A DNA stretch of 39,103 bases. Source: a virus. The translations under genes were made by a program, and so were the position numbers. The stretch covers positions 1 through 39,103 of IMG/VR virus record IMGVR_UViG_3300042371_000328. One strand, given 5' to 3'. The notes beneath the pieces are model-generated. The model worked only from the letters and a program-made list of their open reading frames with translations. It was not told where the DNA came from and ran no database searches. This document shows positions 2,891 through 34,144 of the stretch, piece by piece; the stretch's first letter is position 1, and each line of letters begins with the position of its first letter.

Positions 2891-3144
2891 TGTTCAACCT
2901 CTAGTGGATCAATATAACCAAACCTGATTAGGCTATCTTTAACTTCTGAGGGTAACTCATATACACCATCATAGTCAATTAAGAACATTCCACGATCAAA
3001 CCATAGACCTCCTCCTGATTCGTCACCAAGTTCTTTATGTTCAAACCAACCATAGTTAGTACTAGGGCTAATTTGAATCTCATAGTTTTGACCACCTAAC
3101 TTAATAGTGAAGTCATGCTTTGTAGCATTGGGTTTAGCCGCCAT
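2884..3144 (-). CDS. Hypothetical protein, 86 aa
   Basis: A beta-rich protein with many aromatic and glycine residues (YGWFEHKELGDESGGGLWFD). Function unknown. The ATG at 3144 is preferred over the TTG at 3147 because it is an ATG and keeps an ATGA overlap with the GIY-YIG-like gene upstream; an AGGAG ribosome site lies before it. No membrane segment is seen. Confidence 0.7.
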   Translation of the reverse strand: MAAKPNATKHDFTIKLGGQNYEIQISPSTNYGWFEHKELGDESGGGLWFDRGMFLIDYDGVYELPSEVKDSLIRFGYIDPLEVEQW

Positions 3145-3758
3145 CAATTACTCCTGTTTAAGTTGTCAGACAGATTAAAGTACATAGGACTCATACGAGT
3201 CTTTAGTTGTAACAACAAGATAGTTTCTAACTCAAGCATTTCTTGATCAGTGCCATAAGCTAGAATAGTTCGAATAAACCTTGATGGGCATTCATTGTAT
3301 TCAACCATGAAGCTTTCAGATGAACACACATATCCGTCATCAGGTTTACCACGATGTTTACCGATATATTTCTTATCGGTGTCTTTGTTGATCCACATGT
3401 ATAAGAACGACTCACCTTCTTGTATATGAGCTTCTTCATCAGAGGCTAAGTATACAGTCTCTTGAGGAGTTCCATCAATGTGGTTCTGCCAGATCTCTTT
3501 AACGTAGGCTACCATAGGATCACCTTTAGGGGCTTTCCAGAATACTACAAAAGAGGGTTGCCCTTCGTTGGCACAGAGATATTCATAGACCCACTTGTTG
3601 TGGAGACCATTATATTCTTTACCTTCAATGGACACCTTGACCATTGCTTTGCCAGTACTAGAAGTATAAGTATCAACTTCATCTACAGTGCATTCATAGA
3701 TGTCGAAGAACTTATGACTTCCAGCGACAAAACGTTTAATCGTTTTGATATGATTCAT
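3144..3758 (-). CDS. GIY-YIG-like nuclease domain protein
   Basis: A 204-residue protein with two parts. Residues 1-100 are unknown and beta-rich. Residues 117-185 resemble a GIY-YIG fold: FLYMWINKDTDKKYIGKHRG gives the first strands (GIY replaced by LYM, YIG kept at 131-133), followed by DDGYVCSSESF and an ELETILLLQL helix whose E178 could be the metal-binding glutamate. Members of this family cut DNA as homing endonucleases or anti-host nucleases. The N-terminal half could direct binding. The changed first motif lowers certainty about activity. It overlaps its neighbours by 1 and 23 bases. Confidence 0.6.
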   Translation of the reverse strand: MNHIKTIKRFVAGSHKFFDIYECTVDEVDTYTSSTGKAMVKVSIEGKEYNGLHNKWVYEYLCANEGQPSFVVFWKAPKGDPMVAYVKEIWQNHIDGTPQETVYLASDEEAHIQEGESFLYMWINKDTDKKYIGKHRGKPDDGYVCSSESFMVEYNECPSRFIRTILAYGTDQEMLELETILLLQLKTRMSPMYFNLSDNLNRSN

Positions 3759-3972
3759 TAGTTGCTTTTTTGTAGTAAGTATTCATTGTATAGAATGATC
3801 CGTCTTCATCTAGATTAGAGCAGACTACAGAAGATCTTACATCAAAGCATCTACCTAGTTTAGGGTGATCTAGTACTAGTGGAATAGATGCAAATGTTAA
3901 TGTAATATCATCAAATTCAATTTTGTGAAAAGTTGCAGTACCAAAGTAATGGACTACTTTGTGTTCACTCAC
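3736..3972 (-). CDS. Hypothetical protein, 78 aa, GTG start
   Basis: A beta-rich small protein (VVHYFGTATFHKIEFDDITL). It begins with GTG at 3972 in a GTGA overlap with the DUF3310 gene, with GAAGG upstream as ribosome site. Its last seven codons overlap the GIY-YIG-like gene. No domain was recognised. Confidence 0.65.
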   Translation of the reverse strand: MSEHKVVHYFGTATFHKIEFDDITLTFASIPLVLDHPKLGRCFDVRSSVVCSNLDEDGSFYTMNTYYKKATNESYQND

Positions 3973-4370
3973 AGTACTTTACCTTCAGACTTGTACTTGA
4001 TGAGTGCTTGTAGATACCACAGAGCTTTGCCTAGCTCTTGTACTTCTTCATCTTTATTACCGCAACGCATCAGGTACTTATACACTTGACCGAACAAGTG
4101 AGCTTCAACACCTGATTTACCTTCAAGCATGTCAACCATGAGTTCCATGTATTGTTTACCTGCGGCTACGTTCTTGTAGTGTTTAGGATTGATAGCATCT
4201 GTATCATTAAACATATCAATTTCGTTATTGTATGATTCAGCAAAGGCTTCAGACCAACCTCGATCAAGTTCTTTACGTTCTTGATTGAGTAATTTTTTAG
4301 ATTGAACATCAAAGAAATCTTCATTATCCCATGATGCTAGGACTGATTTTAATTCGTTGTCTGTTAACAT
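3969..4370 (-). CDS. DUF3310 protein (nucleotide-kinase-associated phage family)
   Basis: A 133-residue protein whose C-terminal half matches the DUF3310 pattern: INPKHYK at residues 61-67, then a helix with YMELMVDMLEG, then HLFGQVYKYLMRCGNKDEEVQELGKALWYLQALI. To my knowledge a DUF3310 segment is also present in T7 gp1.7, a nucleotide kinase, but this short protein shows no P-loop, so a kinase activity is not claimed. The N-terminal half is unrelated and charged. It shares one base with the downstream end of the next gene (TAATG overlap). A role in nucleotide metabolism fits the neighbourhood. Confidence 0.75.
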   Translation of the reverse strand: MLTDNELKSVLASWDNEDFFDVQSKKLLNQERKELDRGWSEAFAESYNNEIDMFNDTDAINPKHYKNVAAGKQYMELMVDMLEGKSGVEAHLFGQVYKYLMRCGNKDEEVQELGKALWYLQALIKYKSEGKVL

Positions 4371-4612
4371 TAGTATACATCTCCGTTTAAAGTGATTTTG
4401 TTATCTTCATAAGGGGCGGCAACCCTACGATAAAACTCTAGTTTAGCTCCTTCAAGTGCGCCAACAACATCGTTGACAGATTGATAAGATGGACTTTTGT
4501 TATAGTAGTCACGAATGAATGTTGTGATTAGGAAGTTTAATTCGCCTGCACAGTGTGGTTCATACTTGAGCATGTGTGGTGATTGACGGGCTTCTTCAGT
4601 GATGTATGGCAT
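4370..4612 (-). CDS. Conserved phage protein (DUF6899-like)
   Basis: An 80-residue protein starting MPYITEEARQ and ending in LEGAKLEFYRRVAAPYEDNK plus GDVY. This combination, PYIT at the start, AGELN(F/Y) in the middle and ALEG-x-KLEFYRRV-x-PYE at the end, is a conserved phage family of unknown function that I recall as DUF6899. The protein is helical, soluble and likely a regulator or nucleotide-metabolism accessory, but that is inference from location only. Confidence 0.75.
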   Translation of the reverse strand: MPYITEEARQSPHMLKYEPHCAGELNFLITTFIRDYYNKSPSYQSVNDVVGALEGAKLEFYRRVAAPYEDNKITLNGDVY

Positions 4613-4613
4613 A

Positions 4614-4706
4614 TTAGATATTTATTTTAGGTTTACGAAAGAGTTGTGCAATTACGCACAGTGAGGCAAAACAAAGTAATCCTATCCAGATGTATTTAAT
4701 AATCAT
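4614..4706 (-). CDS. 30-aa single-pass membrane peptide
   Basis: A very small frame, MIIKYIWIGLLCFASLCVIA followed by a basic tail. It is one hydrophobic helix with positive residues after it. The ATG forms an ATGA overlap with the deoxyribosyltransferase gene, and the stop lies just before the start of the DUF6899-like gene, so it fills the gap exactly. Function unknown. Confidence 0.55.
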   Translation of the reverse strand: MIIKYIWIGLLCFASLCVIAQLFRKPKINI

Positions 4707-5110
4707 AAGTACTCCGCAAGAATTGTATCACAAGCTTTATCAACAGTAGATCTCCATTCAGTTACAAGGGACTCAAAGAAAGGATGAATTGTTGTATTGT
4801 CTTCTTTAAACGCTACAACAGGTATTTTTAATACATAAGCAGCATAGAACACTTCCATAGCAGTACCATGTTTGGGTACAGTAGGATTATTCAAGTTTGC
4901 TAAGATTAAGTCAGACTCACGGATGTCACGCAGATCAAGTTCAAATATACGTTTCATATATTTAGGTTGAAATGCATGAATACGTCTGCATGGATTAAGG
5001 ATGTTAGTTGAGTGAGCTAACATGTGTGTTGCTGTTGATCGCCAACCTTTAGCTTCTTCAGCAGACACATGTTCCATTGGACCTGCAAGATAGATTGTTC
5101 TACGTTTCAT
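4703..5110 (-). CDS. Nucleoside 2-deoxyribosyltransferase-like enzyme
   Basis: A 135-residue protein of the NDT/DNPH1 Rossmann-like family, which cleaves or transfers the N-glycosidic bond of 2'-deoxynucleosides or deoxynucleotides. Visible hallmarks are the N-terminal IYLAGPM (residues 6-12), the acidic cluster D59-LRDI-x2-SD67-LILANL, and GTAMEVFYA (82-90), whose E86 is the expected catalytic glutamate. The length is normal for the family. It probably salvages bases together with the deaminase and MazG-like enzyme nearby. A DNPH1-type deoxynucleotide hydrolase is the main alternative. Confidence 0.85.
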   Translation of the reverse strand: MKRRTIYLAGPMEHVSAEEAKGWRSTATHMLAHSTNILNPCRRIHAFQPKYMKRIFELDLRDIRESDLILANLNNPTVPKHGTAMEVFYAAYVLKIPVVAFKEDNTTIHPFFESLVTEWRSTVDKACDTILAEYL

Positions 5111-8726: not shown

Positions 8727-8744
8727 TAGTCGGTTCCTAATAGA
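8727..8744 (+). promoter_or_regulatory. Promoter-like motif P2 (plus strand)
   Basis: TAGTCGGTTCCTAATAGA, continuing TA. It is in the gap between the divergent ssDNA-binding protein and small terminase genes, and ends 27 bases before the terminase ATG. It is 17/20 identical to P1. An AAGGAG ribosome site follows at 8759-8764. Confidence 0.7.
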
Positions 8745-11149: not shown

Positions 11150-11467
11150 TTAAGATTTAACAATATCATAGAACCATACATCGGGATCGTTACCGCCAGC
11201 AGCAACAAAGTGTACTACCAACTCTTTGTCATAAGCCTTTTGGATCTTAGCAAAAAGTTTCTCAGCATATCCTTCAGCAAGACGGTTAAGCTGGCATCTA
11301 CGTTTACGGTTATCACTACAACTGATAATGAAAGTGTTTGAATCTTCATTATATTCAGGGAATGTAATGATTACAGGTACACTAGTACGATCTGGTTGGA
11401 GTGGATTCATTGTACTGAACACAGATGGCTGACCATCTTTAGATTTGAAAGTAAAGCTTTTAGACAT
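11150..11467 (-). CDS. Hypothetical protein, 105 aa
   Basis: A basic, mixed alpha/beta protein (MSKSFTFKSKDGQPSVFSTM). A strand segment SVPVIITFPEYNED is followed by NTFIISCSDNRKRRCQLNRL, so a small nucleic-acid-binding fold is possible. Function unknown. It is the first gene after a terminator-like hairpin at 11493-11515. Confidence 0.65.
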   Translation of the reverse strand: MSKSFTFKSKDGQPSVFSTMNPLQPDRTSVPVIITFPEYNEDSNTFIISCSDNRKRRCQLNRLAEGYAEKLFAKIQKAYDKELVVHFVAAGGNDPDVWFYDIVKS

Positions 11468-12232: not shown

Positions 12233-12258
12233 ATTAATCTCCTTGAGTTATGACATAC

Positions 12259-12295
12259 AGAGCAAGACGCTCTCCATTGGGTTATTACACCCAAT
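12259..12295 (-). other. Two tandem hairpins before the two-helix membrane protein gene
   Basis: ATTGGGT pairs with ACCCAAT (12276-12295, 7 bp, 6-base loop) and AGAGC pairs with GCTCT (12259-12273, 5 bp, 5-base loop). No U-run follows either, so they look like mRNA-stabilising or processing structures rather than a terminator. Confidence 0.55.
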
Positions 12296-12309
12296 AGACA
12301 GAGACTTCA

Positions 12310-12675
12310 TTAAAACAAATCAGTAGATAAAACGTATAATTCTTCTACTGAGCCGTGGTTAAGTGGCTCACCTTCAGGAACAAAACTACAGCCTCTTTGA
12401 AAGGCAAGTTCTAAGCCTGCTTGTTCAGCATGATCCTTTGATAAGAAGTAACCTTCATGACATGAGTTAGACTTAGGACCATAATCACCATCTACTTCGT
12501 AACTACGAACAAGAATGTACAAAGTCTTAACATTGTACTGTGTTCGAAGAGCAGTCATACCACACTCAAGTGCAGCACGATTCTCTTTTGGTATGCAAGC
12601 AAACATACCAGAACGAAGCGCCTGATGGAGGGAGTGAGCCGCAGAACGGAACAAGTTAAAATTAACAGTAGACAT
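12310..12675 (-). CDS. Hypothetical protein, 121 aa; first gene of the minus-strand island
   Basis: A mixed alpha/beta protein (MSTVNFNLFRSAAHSLHQAL), with a YILVRSYEVDGDYGP strand and an acidic end. No family was recognised. Its ATG is preceded by TAGGGGTTTGTT, so AGGGG acts as ribosome site. Its mRNA leader would run through a stretch with no A over 106 bases (12687-12792). A transcript starting in 12700-13000 would make this the first early gene of the island. Confidence 0.65.
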   Translation of the reverse strand: MSTVNFNLFRSAAHSLHQALRSGMFACIPKENRAALECGMTALRTQYNVKTLYILVRSYEVDGDYGPKSNSCHEGYFLSKDHAEQAGLELAFQRGCSFVPEGEPLNHGSVEELYVLSTDLF

Positions 12676-12686
12676 AACAAACCCCT

Positions 12687-12792
12687 AACAGCGCAACAAA
12701 GAAAGCCAGCAAGCACAGCGCCAAGCACAAGCCGACAAGGAACGAGGACGGGCAACCCACGGAGGAAGCACACCACACAACAAGGGGGGGCG
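12687..12792 (+). other. 106-base stretch without a single T on the plus strand
   Basis: Counting base by base, no T occurs between the T at 12686 and the T at 12793. The stretch is rich in A, C and G, and ends with a run of seven G at 12784-12790. On the minus strand this is an A-free leader of G, C and T. Confidence 0.9.
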
Positions 12793-12973
12793 TACAAAGC
12801 CAGACGGGGGTATACCAAACAACACTGGATTCTTTTAAACGCACACAAAGACATCTACCCCAGACATTCCCCAGCGACACCCTCTATAAAAATAGGGGTA
12901 CCCCAAAGACGTATACAAAAGATTACATTTCTAAAAATTATTGGAATTATTTTTTTAAATAAAATCAACTGGT

Positions 12974-12991
12974 TAGTCGGTACATAATAGA
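12974..12991 (+). promoter_or_regulatory. Promoter-like motif P4 (plus strand)
   Basis: TAGTCGGTACATAATAGA, 17 of 18 consensus bases. It ends 24 bases before the large terminase ATG. It follows an AT-rich block. The end GGTACATAATAGA recalls the SP6 promoter core (GACACTATAGA), a similarity I note without claiming homology. Confidence 0.72.
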
Positions 12992-13015: not shown

Positions 13016-14656
13016 ATGACACAACAAAACAATTCTGATAAGCTAGAGGCTCTGAGGGAATTAAAGAAGCGTGAGAAATTAAACGCTTACAAAGGCGACT
13101 TTGAATTATTCGCCAAAGAACAATTAAAAATCTTACCCAAGGACTCCTCTAAGGGATTCCAATCTTTTGAGTTTAATGAAGCTCAAAGGATTGTGAATGA
13201 AGCACTTGAGAAACAACTCAAGGAAACAGGGAGAGTCAGAGCTATTATTTTAAAAGCTCGACAGATGGGTTTAAGTACATACACGACAGGTAGGGTATTC
13301 TGGAAGAGTTACTTTAATGCTTACAACAAGTCAGTAGTTATGGCGCATGATGCGGCTACTAGTGATGCATTATTTGGTATGTCCAGGAATATCATCTATA
13401 ACATGTCTGATACATTCAGACCTATGTTAAAAAAGTCAAATGCAAAAGAGATTATGTTTGAGCATAATGATTCAGGGTACAGGCTGTACACAGCTGGAGC
13501 ACCTGAGGCTGGTAGGGGAACAACTCCTACAATTGCTCACTTATCCGAGGTAGCCTTTTGGGGGCATGATGAAAAGATTTTGGCAGGATTATTCCAAGGG
13601 ATATCCCAGTCTGAAGGGACTGAAGTTATTCTTGAGAGTACTGCTAATGGTGTAGGTAATTCATTTCACAGGTTATGGCAGGGAGCTGTAAAAGGTGAGA
13701 ATGACTATATTGCTATCTTTGTTCCATGGTACCTGATGACAGAGTACCAGAGGAAAGTTCCTGAAGGATTTGAGAGAACAACAGAAGAAGAAGTATTAGT
13801 TACTCGATACAACTTGAGTGACGATCAACTATACTGGAGAAGGTTAAAGATTGCAGAGGGTGGTGAGAATAAGTTCCGTCAAGAATACCCTGCGACACCT
13901 GAAGAAGCATTTATTGTTTCTGGCTCTAATGTATTTAACATTGAAAAGCTAAGTAAACTTATACCTCAACCAATATTAGCCAAGAGAGAGTTTAATTTTG
14001 AATCCTCTATGATGGAGGATTTAAGAGATGGGTCTATCGAGATATTTAAGTATCCTACTTTTGAAGATGCCTTTGCTATCGGTGCTGACGTTGCTCTGGG
14101 TGTTGGCAAGGATTATTCTACAGCAGTGGTCATTAATGCCCAGAGGGAAGTGTGCGCAGTTTATCGCAGTAATACGATTGATCCTAGTCAGTTTGGTGAT
14201 CTACTATTTTATCTAGGTAGGTACTACAACAATGCTTTGTTAGCCGTAGAGTCTAATTCTATGGGTATAGCAACATTAAACAGGTTAACTCAAATGGGTT
14301 ACATGAATATGTACTATCAGACTAAGATGGCGAATGTATCCAAAGAAGAAGGTAGTAGAATTGGCTGGAGAACAACGTCTGCCTCTAAACCAGCTATCAT
14401 TGGATTCTTAAAGAATGCTATTGAACAAGAAGATATATGGATACCTTCTAGGGTTATTATTGGTGAATTAATGAACTATGTAGCAGATGAGTCTGGAAAG
14501 ACAAATGCTATTATAGGTCAAAATGATGATACAGTTATTGCCCTTGCTATTGCTCTTGAGGTTATCAGGACACACGGGGATAGATTAACAAATACAACAG
14601 TACCCTTCTCACAACGTATGGGTAATTTTCAACAAATAGAAACAACTTGGATTTAA
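13016..14656 (+). CDS. terL: Terminase large subunit
   Basis: The 546-residue DNA packaging motor ATPase and nuclease. The Walker A is the variant K80-ARQMGLST-88 typical of phage terminases. Walker B is IAHLSEVAFW (173-182), with E178 as the catalytic carboxylate. The C-terminal RNase H-like nuclease shows AIGADVALG (D358), LAVESNSMGIATLNRL and the DD pair in GQNDDTVIALAIA. Length is normal. Expression probably starts at P4; the ribosome site is weak (TAGGC). The first plus-strand late gene of the main block, it is far from its small subunit. Confidence 0.95.
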   Translation: MTQQNNSDKLEALRELKKREKLNAYKGDFELFAKEQLKILPKDSSKGFQSFEFNEAQRIVNEALEKQLKETGRVRAIILKARQMGLSTYTTGRVFWKSYFNAYNKSVVMAHDAATSDALFGMSRNIIYNMSDTFRPMLKKSNAKEIMFEHNDSGYRLYTAGAPEAGRGTTPTIAHLSEVAFWGHDEKILAGLFQGISQSEGTEVILESTANGVGNSFHRLWQGAVKGENDYIAIFVPWYLMTEYQRKVPEGFERTTEEEVLVTRYNLSDDQLYWRRLKIAEGGENKFRQEYPATPEEAFIVSGSNVFNIEKLSKLIPQPILAKREFNFESSMMEDLRDGSIEIFKYPTFEDAFAIGADVALGVGKDYSTAVVINAQREVCAVYRSNTIDPSQFGDLLFYLGRYYNNALLAVESNSMGIATLNRLTQMGYMNMYYQTKMANVSKEEGSRIGWRTTSASKPAIIGFLKNAIEQEDIWIPSRVIIGELMNYVADESGKTNAIIGQNDDTVIALAIALEVIRTHGDRLTNTTVPFSQRMGNFQQIETTWI

Positions 14657-33697: not shown

Positions 33698-34140
33698 ACT
33701 TAACTATAGCCGCAGACTTGTGTAAACATTTTGAAGGCTTTAGTTCTAAGCCTTACATGTGTCCTGCTAATGTAGCTACTATAGGTTACGGCAGTACATA
33801 CTATGCTGACGGTAGGAAAGTAACGCTTCAGGATCCTCCTATGAGTGAGCCTGAGGCTTATGATCTTCTACTCAAAGAATTACATCATACCTATTTACCC
33901 GGAACACTTAGGTATTGTCCTGTACTAGCTACAGATGAAAAGAAATTAAATGCTATTGTTGACTTCTGTTACAACTTAGGTGTAGGTAGACTACAGACAA
34001 GTACATTAAGACGAAAGATTAATGAACAAGACTGGGAAGCCGCTAAGGTAGAGTTAATGAAATGGAATAAAGGTGGAGGTAAAGTGTTAGCTGGTCTTAA
34101 CAAAAGACGCAAGGCTGAATGCGCTTTACTTGGTACCTAA
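33694..34140 (+). CDS. Lysozyme (endolysin), GH24, with Cys in place of catalytic Asp
   Basis: A 148-residue T4-type muramidase. The catalytic region reads E14 (HFEGF), C23 (PYMCPANV) and T29 (ATIGYGS). The E-to-C gap of 9 and C-to-T gap of 6 equal those of T4 lysozyme E11, D20 and T26, so the middle residue is Cys where T4 has Asp. A T4 D20C variant is known to be active, and many phage lysozymes share the YxCPAxV pattern, so activity is expected. NAIVDFCYNLGVGRLQTSTL is the conserved helix. No signal peptide is present, so export needs the holin. Confidence 0.92.
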   Translation: MNLTIAADLCKHFEGFSSKPYMCPANVATIGYGSTYYADGRKVTLQDPPMSEPEAYDLLLKELHHTYLPGTLRYCPVLATDEKKLNAIVDFCYNLGVGRLQTSTLRRKINEQDWEAAKVELMKWNKGGGKVLAGLNKRRKAECALLGT

Positions 34141-34144
34141 TAGT
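34127..34144 (+). promoter_or_regulatory. Promoter-like motif P5 (plus strand)
   Basis: TACTTGGTACCTAATAGT: 15 of 18 match the consensus. It overlaps the last codons and the stop of the lysozyme gene and ends 17 bases before the next ATG, which has an AAGGA site. It would drive the nozzle, tip and ejection genes. Confidence 0.6.

Follow-up and report, generated by a model that had tools for sequence, protein, structure and literature searches.

An adenine-free leader at the start of a predicted early transcription unit in CRP-7-type podoviruses

A lineage of water-borne bacterial viruses opens what is predicted to be its earliest message with 0.1-1 kb of sequence from which adenine is excluded. 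The A-free start takes in the leader and, in many members, whole genes, and it is real and, as far as we could find, undescribed. The exclusion is specific to the sense strand, runs from the early promoter region, covers the leader and the genes resident there, overrides codon and amino-acid choice, and survives large sequence turnover. The case described here lies in what we call the window, the entire 39,103-nt stretch of viral DNA that was analysed, where positions 12687-12792 on the minus strand form a 106-nt tract that is, judged from its sequence and setting, the A-free leader of a leftward early transcription unit. Our tentative reading, one that falls short of an even chance, is that this transcript opens with an adenine-exclusion zone, the tract, maintained by selection against a hazard attached to each A that is added.

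The tract and its distribution among relatives

The plus strand contains no T at all over the 106 nt from 12687 to 12792, exactly as the first-pass annotation had described it, in a window that is 30.1% T overall (base count over 39,103 bases). The second-longest T-free run in the window is 28 nt, and the longest runs lacking one of the other bases are 30 nt (A-free), 65 nt (C-free) and 60 nt (G-free). When sequences of 39,103 bases were simulated with a first-order Markov model (n=60), the longest T-free run averaged 28 nt and reached 48 nt at most. The tract ends at a T at 12686, which is a sense-strand A beside the ribosome-binding site, and at T at 12793 and beyond, and it separates a block of small leftward genes (about 0.9-12.7 kb) from a rightward terL-portal-capsid block. 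The minus strand is free of A across the same interval, which bears out the earlier suggestion that the transcript leader of the gene at 12310-12675 would lack A.

Phages of the lineage that includes the window have genomes of about 58-63 kb, and Roseobacter phage CRP-7 is the only cultured one in the collection. CRP-7-type podoviruses are taken here as phages whose terminase, portal, capsid and phage RNA polymerase are homologous to those of CRP-7 and whose early and late units diverge; the window has terL and portal genes, its terminase is 61% identical to that of CRP-7, there are shared genes, and its relatives carry a T7-like RNA polymerase. The set of close relatives comprises 80 viral contigs with terminases 79-100% identical, 73 of them with sequence upstream of terL. 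A T-free run of at least 45 nt within 700 nt before terL is present in 65 of the 73, with a maximum of 269 nt; frequently there are several such runs interrupted by single Ts, and elsewhere in each locus runs above 45 nt are rare. One contig (L074) has about 1.1 kb with just 0-4 T per 100 nt. Among more distant relatives, found by a wider terminase search, T-free runs extend to 306 nt and the strand is always the same, and CRP-7 itself has runs of 224, 168 and 104 nt at the head of its early unit. It is the T-free property, rather than the sequence, that is strongly conserved: the tracts of relatives are often longer, and their sequence is different.

In the terminase tree, a clade without the tract (14 sampled phages, including G013 and G025) is sister to 46 phages of two tract-bearing clades, and inside the latter the tract is weak or absent in the G015 subclade and in a few tips. 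No T-free run of 60 nt was found in CRP-6, CRP-1, CRP-4, SIO1 or EE36phi1, whose hosts are identical or related to that of CRP-7. CRP-6 infects the same host strain as CRP-7 yet has no tract, which makes pressure imposed by the host unlikely as the sole cause. In a more distant terminase group (L209-L240), T is scarce in a patch whose position is constant, about 500 nt before terL; this patch is weaker, looks like plus-strand coding in its composition and shows no distance gradient, and it was rejected as an instance of the same phenomenon.

To which transcription unit does the tract belong? Its distance to terL varies from about 0.1 to 3.7 kb over the genomes, and its position at the early leader is kept. 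In CRP-7 and four other genomes (L113, L117, L119 and L130) it lies 1-3.7 kb from terL, with other genes between, and heads the divergent early unit; the distance in CRP-7 is 3.2 kb, with the tract still at the early leader. Because the tract moves with the early unit away from terL, it is to be assigned to the early transcript and described, meaningfully, as a sense strand without A. The first-pass annotation had placed it in the gap before the large terminase and listed packaging among its possible uses, a view that these five genomes contradict. A pac or cos packaging site was likewise rejected, as the tract has no fixed position relative to the terminase genes.

Anatomy of the leader and the genes within the A-depleted zone

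A boundary motif, AAAGAATC with TCTTTGTGTGYGT before it, is found at 12828-12835 (minus strand) and is common to 40 non-redundant loci; it is probably an early promoter element, a role suggested by its position alone. Sense-strand A falls just past the conserved AAAGAATCA motif and recovers over 0.3-1.2 kb. Over 55 non-redundant loci, with distances counted from the motif, A stands at 12-20% upstream, at 3% by 12-16 nt downstream and at 0-1% at 50-110 nt, and has climbed back to 34% some 1.4 kb away. Over the initial 100 nt, A is replaced by C, G and T at 0.31, 0.29 and 0.38, roughly in proportion. The median A content is 1.7% in the leader, 12% in the first gene and at least 34% in distal genes, and several genomes retain As within the first 50 nt.

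The entire A-depleted leader of the window (12676-12823, minus strand) starts shortly past the promoter-proximal motif and stops at the first start codon. Counted from the motif, leaders comprise a stem element, 5-7 C, a hairpin, a ribosome-binding site (GGGG or GGAG) and a start codon (ATG or GTG). Inspection of aligned leaders places the short GGTATACC stem element, of a GGG-NNNN-CCC-like type (GGGTTCGCCC or GGGTGTACCC in relatives), at 12809-12816 (minus strand), near the putative RNA 5' end. It is followed by a CCCCCCC run at 12784-12790 (minus strand; C5-C7 in nearly all relatives), which in the predicted fold can pair with the GGGG ribosome-binding site at 12682-12685 (minus strand), an A-free form common in the family. 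The hairpin GTCGGC...GCTGGC at 12705-12736 (minus strand) is built of G-C and G-U pairs; some of its pairs covary in relatives (GUCAAC/GUUGAC, GCGCG/CGCGC), and the consensus fold energy is weak. Small hairpins of the sense types AGAGC-GUCUU-GCUCU and GGGC-GCUCUU-GCCC recur before several early genes (12244-12300 in the window and equivalent sites in relatives), and may be RNA-processing or stability elements.

The first early gene of the window (12310-12675, minus strand) encodes 121 aa with no family match and has a normal A content of 24%. The window has the short version of the arrangement, with an A-free leader and a first gene of normal composition, and this gene probably came to the first slot more recently. 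Elsewhere in the early region there is a homing-endonuclease-like domain (PHROG 314) at 3144-3758 (minus strand). On the other side of the tract, the large terminase gene (13016-14656, plus strand) is the first of the divergent late unit; it is a neighbour here, outside the mechanism proposed below. The candidate phage-RNA-polymerase promoter of the late unit is GTCGGTACATAATAG at 12976-12990 (plus strand). This site is one of four GTCGGTACNTAATAG-like motifs in the window, candidate promoters for a T7-like RNA polymerase, the others being at 8729-8743 and 34129-34143 on the plus strand and at 2656-2670 on the minus strand; such a motif precedes terL in most close relatives.

The tract had at first been judged not to be coding. 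This stands for the 106 bases themselves, where relatives differ by 1-nt indels, but fails for the A-free zone as a whole, which in many relatives holds minus-strand genes under purifying selection. In relatives with long tracts these genes begin and finish inside the tract, examples being one of 212 codons with 7 As (L023) and one of 128 codons with 9 As (CRP-7). Values of pN/pS between close homologues are 0.10-0.24, which marks the tract genes as real genes. Ten amino acids can be encoded without A, and those that require it (Ile, Lys, Asn, Thr, Gln, His and Met) are nearly gone from the tract proteins: Ile makes up 0.2% versus 7.0% in distal genes, Lys 0.1% versus 7.3%, and Thr 0.4% versus 7.3%. 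Fourfold sites carry A at 0 of 1324 positions in 18 genes with under 5% A, versus 4107 of 11300 (36%) in distal early genes. The leftover As are mainly in start and stop codons, ribosome-binding sites, and Asp, Glu and Tyr codons.

The choice among these last codons is itself skewed. In the two lowest-A classes of genes, Asp is encoded by GAC in 53 of 73 cases and Tyr by TAC in 31 of 35, versus 42% and 56% in distal genes, and it seems that within tract genes an A followed by T is worse than an A followed by C. The broader sequence context of the leftover As is uninformative, since As that follow G are mostly in Asp and Glu codons. Two candidate causes that act through context were rejected: pausing at sigma-70 -10-like elements, as the leftover As show merely a mild TANNNT deficit (0.47-0.91), and pyrimidine-A cleavage, as post-G As are kept mainly as Asp and Glu codons.

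One protein family shows both states. Its 74 copies (FAM0) are A-free near the putative promoter and A-rich up to 2 kb downstream, and three genomes (L030, L035 and L036) have both types, with copies that align over a conserved core. The window carries an A-rich distal member at 11150-11467 (minus strand). The further a FAM0 copy lies from the putative promoter, the higher its A content, and this applies to each codon position (Spearman 0.50, 0.45 and 0.43, with P values that are optimistic given that the copies are related). Synonymous fourfold differences involve A in 0 of 205 cases among A-free copies versus 2127 of 3147 among A-rich copies, the pairs in both counts being non-independent; silent sites of the A-free copies thus change freely, but just among C, G and T. 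The distance trend is absent in some other families, which would follow if the first slots were filled by different genes at different times. The protein of FAM0, a duplicated early family (L061:1364-1714; 11150-11467 in the window) gives a confident model (pLDDT 85), and a fold search finds a weak resemblance to the OB fold (E about 0.01).

Candidate causes of adenine exclusion

Under the selective reading that we tentatively prefer, RNA polymerase that reads a template T and adds an A just after infection would risk a stall or the end of the chain. Such failure would be polar, with an A near the promoter costing everything downstream. The non-coding leader would be the first part to be purged, and the most thoroughly; genes that had newly arrived (as in the window) would lose their As gradually, and indispensable As would stay. 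Selection is suggested by the survival of functional As, and phage populations are of a size at which even slight effects per site can act. A is lowest in the leader (median 1.7%, as against 12% in first genes), and so a polar transcription hazard fits better than a hazard acting on finished RNA. The 24% A in the window's first gene shows that such a hazard could not be absolute at every A, and the As that several genomes retain in the first 50 nt also speak against the reading.

The source of the hazard might be the template, if T in the phage DNA were replaced, modified or attacked, or the substrate, if ATP were scarce or swapped for an analogue, possibly through a nucleotide-enzyme cassette that co-occurs with the tract. 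This compact DUF3310-DUF6899-PF05014 cassette (3969-5110 in the window, minus strand; L085:4382-5632) consists of a DUF3310 gene (3969-4370; PHROGs: nucleotide kinase), which adjoins the other two, a DUF6899 gene (PF21840; 4370-4612) and a nucleoside 2-deoxyribosyltransferase-like gene (PF05014; 4703-5110), all on the minus strand. In the near-complete or long records, all 14 tract genomes have DUF6899 and 13 of the 14 have the PF05014 gene, and neither gene is in any of the 13 others; these 13 include the G015 subclade, which is nested among carriers and has a weak tract, and the distant group of G033 and G034, and most are fragments. The co-occurrence is confounded by shared ancestry and is a lead, not proof. 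DUF6899 yields a helical model of moderate confidence, has no sequence match among solved structures, and is also found in LR756511, a 595-kb uncultured phage. A fuller version of the preferred reading holds that the lineage writes the first part of its message, functional proteins included, in C, G and U, as adding A would endanger transcription at that time, and that the cassette may create or counter the danger; we consider this version possible but doubtful.

The main alternative to selection is mutational, in that a mutator directed strongly at A would produce a closely similar picture. Perhaps a strand- and promoter-linked process turns A of the non-template strand into any base, with required As being kept. 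The decay with distance from the putative promoter, the near-proportional replacement of A by the three other bases and the retention of functional As would all follow. Such a process would, however, be expected to place a heavy load on required codons and on start and stop As. No reverse transcriptase is present among the Pfam matches listed for G003, all strong ones included, and we know of no enzyme with such an A-to-any spectrum at a phage promoter. We judge a mutational origin unlikely.

An explanation at the level of RNA is equally improbable in our estimation. An A-free message could escape a ribonuclease, binding protein or modification that requires A, or could avoid A-U pairing, giving a stable or unstructured leader. 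UA and CA steps are absent from A-free RNA, and the leader does have conserved blocks and a partly covarying hairpin. However, this would not demand the loss of GA or AA steps, or such full purging of coding sequence, and a cut in the leader should cost less than a cut in a gene, yet the leader is cleanest. Leaders are also about as structured as dinucleotide shuffles (mean z about -0.7, barely below zero), and RNA structure is an unlikely driver.

Slightly less probable again is a specific form of the template hazard, in which these genomes have U or a modified thymine in place of T. Until protective early proteins have been made, each such base in the first template would be a potential lesion (for example, through uracil excision to an abasic site), so that the template would be kept free of T. 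The pattern is per-base, confined to the template strand and found in the earliest transcript, which would fit this explanation. The PF05014, DUF6899 and DUF3310 genes co-occur with the tract, PF05014 homologues in other phages lie inside 7-deazaguanine DNA-modification clusters, and the window has a dCMP deaminase at 1613-2068. The excess of GAC over GAT and TAC over TAT in the tract means that where a template T is left over, the base before it is G and not A, but translation may account for this preference, and the sites share phylogenetic history. Moreover, no thymine-hypermodification enzymes or uracil-glycosylase inhibitor were seen, and the genomes assemble readily from ordinary libraries. 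Tracts of this kind were not found in PBS1 and phiR1-37 (dU-DNA), SPO1 (hydroxymethyl-U), T7, N4 or phiEco32; their absence from the first three indicates that modified T alone does not produce a tract.

That the plus strand is the one that matters, as T-free DNA or U-free RNA serving as a packaging signal, replication origin, primase-free zone or coding sequence, is very improbable and already largely refuted. The tract does adjoin terL in most genomes and its plus strand is stop-free in every frame, but it departs from terL together with the early unit, the genes under purifying selection sit on the minus strand, and the gradient of A with distance tracks the putative early promoter. Plus-strand coding is excluded by the 1-nt indels in aligned leaders, and a T-free strand has no start codons. 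The proposal that sites for host restriction, methylase or primase are being avoided fails on other grounds: such avoidance would not strip every A. Stop-free plus-strand ORFs do lie over the tract (12625-12987 in the window; L081:141-836, which is CRP-7 gp72, annotated as a protein), and most likely these are spurious, because a T-free strand cannot hold stop codons.

Chance, contamination or an assembly artefact can be put aside almost entirely, as simulated runs top out at less than half the length of the tract, and the tract is found with differing sequence in more than 80 further contigs from independent assemblies and in cultured CRP-7, which rules out an assembly artefact.

Known systems and implications

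The nearest precedents share single features with the tract. Reverse transcriptases of diversity-generating retroelements act at template adenines and convert A to all three other bases; here too A alone is affected and is replaced by all three. Unlike the present case, those systems have a reverse transcriptase, a template repeat and an Avd gene, none of which was found in these genomes (the Pfam matches listed for G003 include no reverse transcriptase family), and they diversify A at a receptor-binding gene, whereas here A is exhausted at a putative promoter. Phages with dU or hypermodified T (PBS1, phiR1-37, SPO1, phiW-14) offer a plausible reason for a hazardous template T. Their virion DNA contains non-canonical thymine or uracil, for which the present phages offer just the indirect hint of the co-occurring genes; in PBS1, phiR1-37 and SPO1 every T-free run is shorter than 60 nt, and YuA and phiW-14 have just short G+C-rich runs of a chance type.

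Prokaryotic viperins and other chain-terminating nucleotides resemble the proposed hazard, in that a per-nucleotide risk of RNA chain termination would select against one base. The products described for prokaryotic viperins are ddhCTP, ddhGTP and ddhUTP; unlike what the proposal would need, no ATP analogue is among them. The 'G-less' and 'A-less' cassettes used in vitro are likewise transcribed stretches that lack one base, such that RNA is made without one NTP, but they are laboratory constructs, whereas the tract is natural and conserved and includes genes. We know of no family or system defined by such exclusion of A, and our search of the open-access literature found no description of thymine-free, adenine-free or adenine-depleted phage regions. 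Phages with 2-aminoadenine (Z) do treat adenine in DNA specially (PMC8599892). In those phages A is replaced by Z genome-wide and on both strands, whereas here the template strand is A-rich and A is lacking just from the sense strand, close to one promoter.

Where one nucleotide is purged from leader and genes according to position, and so strongly that proteins are rewritten, this is the footprint of a per-nucleotide hazard or of a mutator. Annotators should be warned that stop-free, spurious ORFs appear on the T-free strand. The A-free and A-rich copies of one family within one genome are a natural experiment in proteins from which about half of the amino acids are nearly absent. CRP-7, which grows on a marine Rhodobacteraceae strain, provides a cultured model, and the readings set out above make predictions for it on template chemistry or nucleotide pools in the first minutes of infection.
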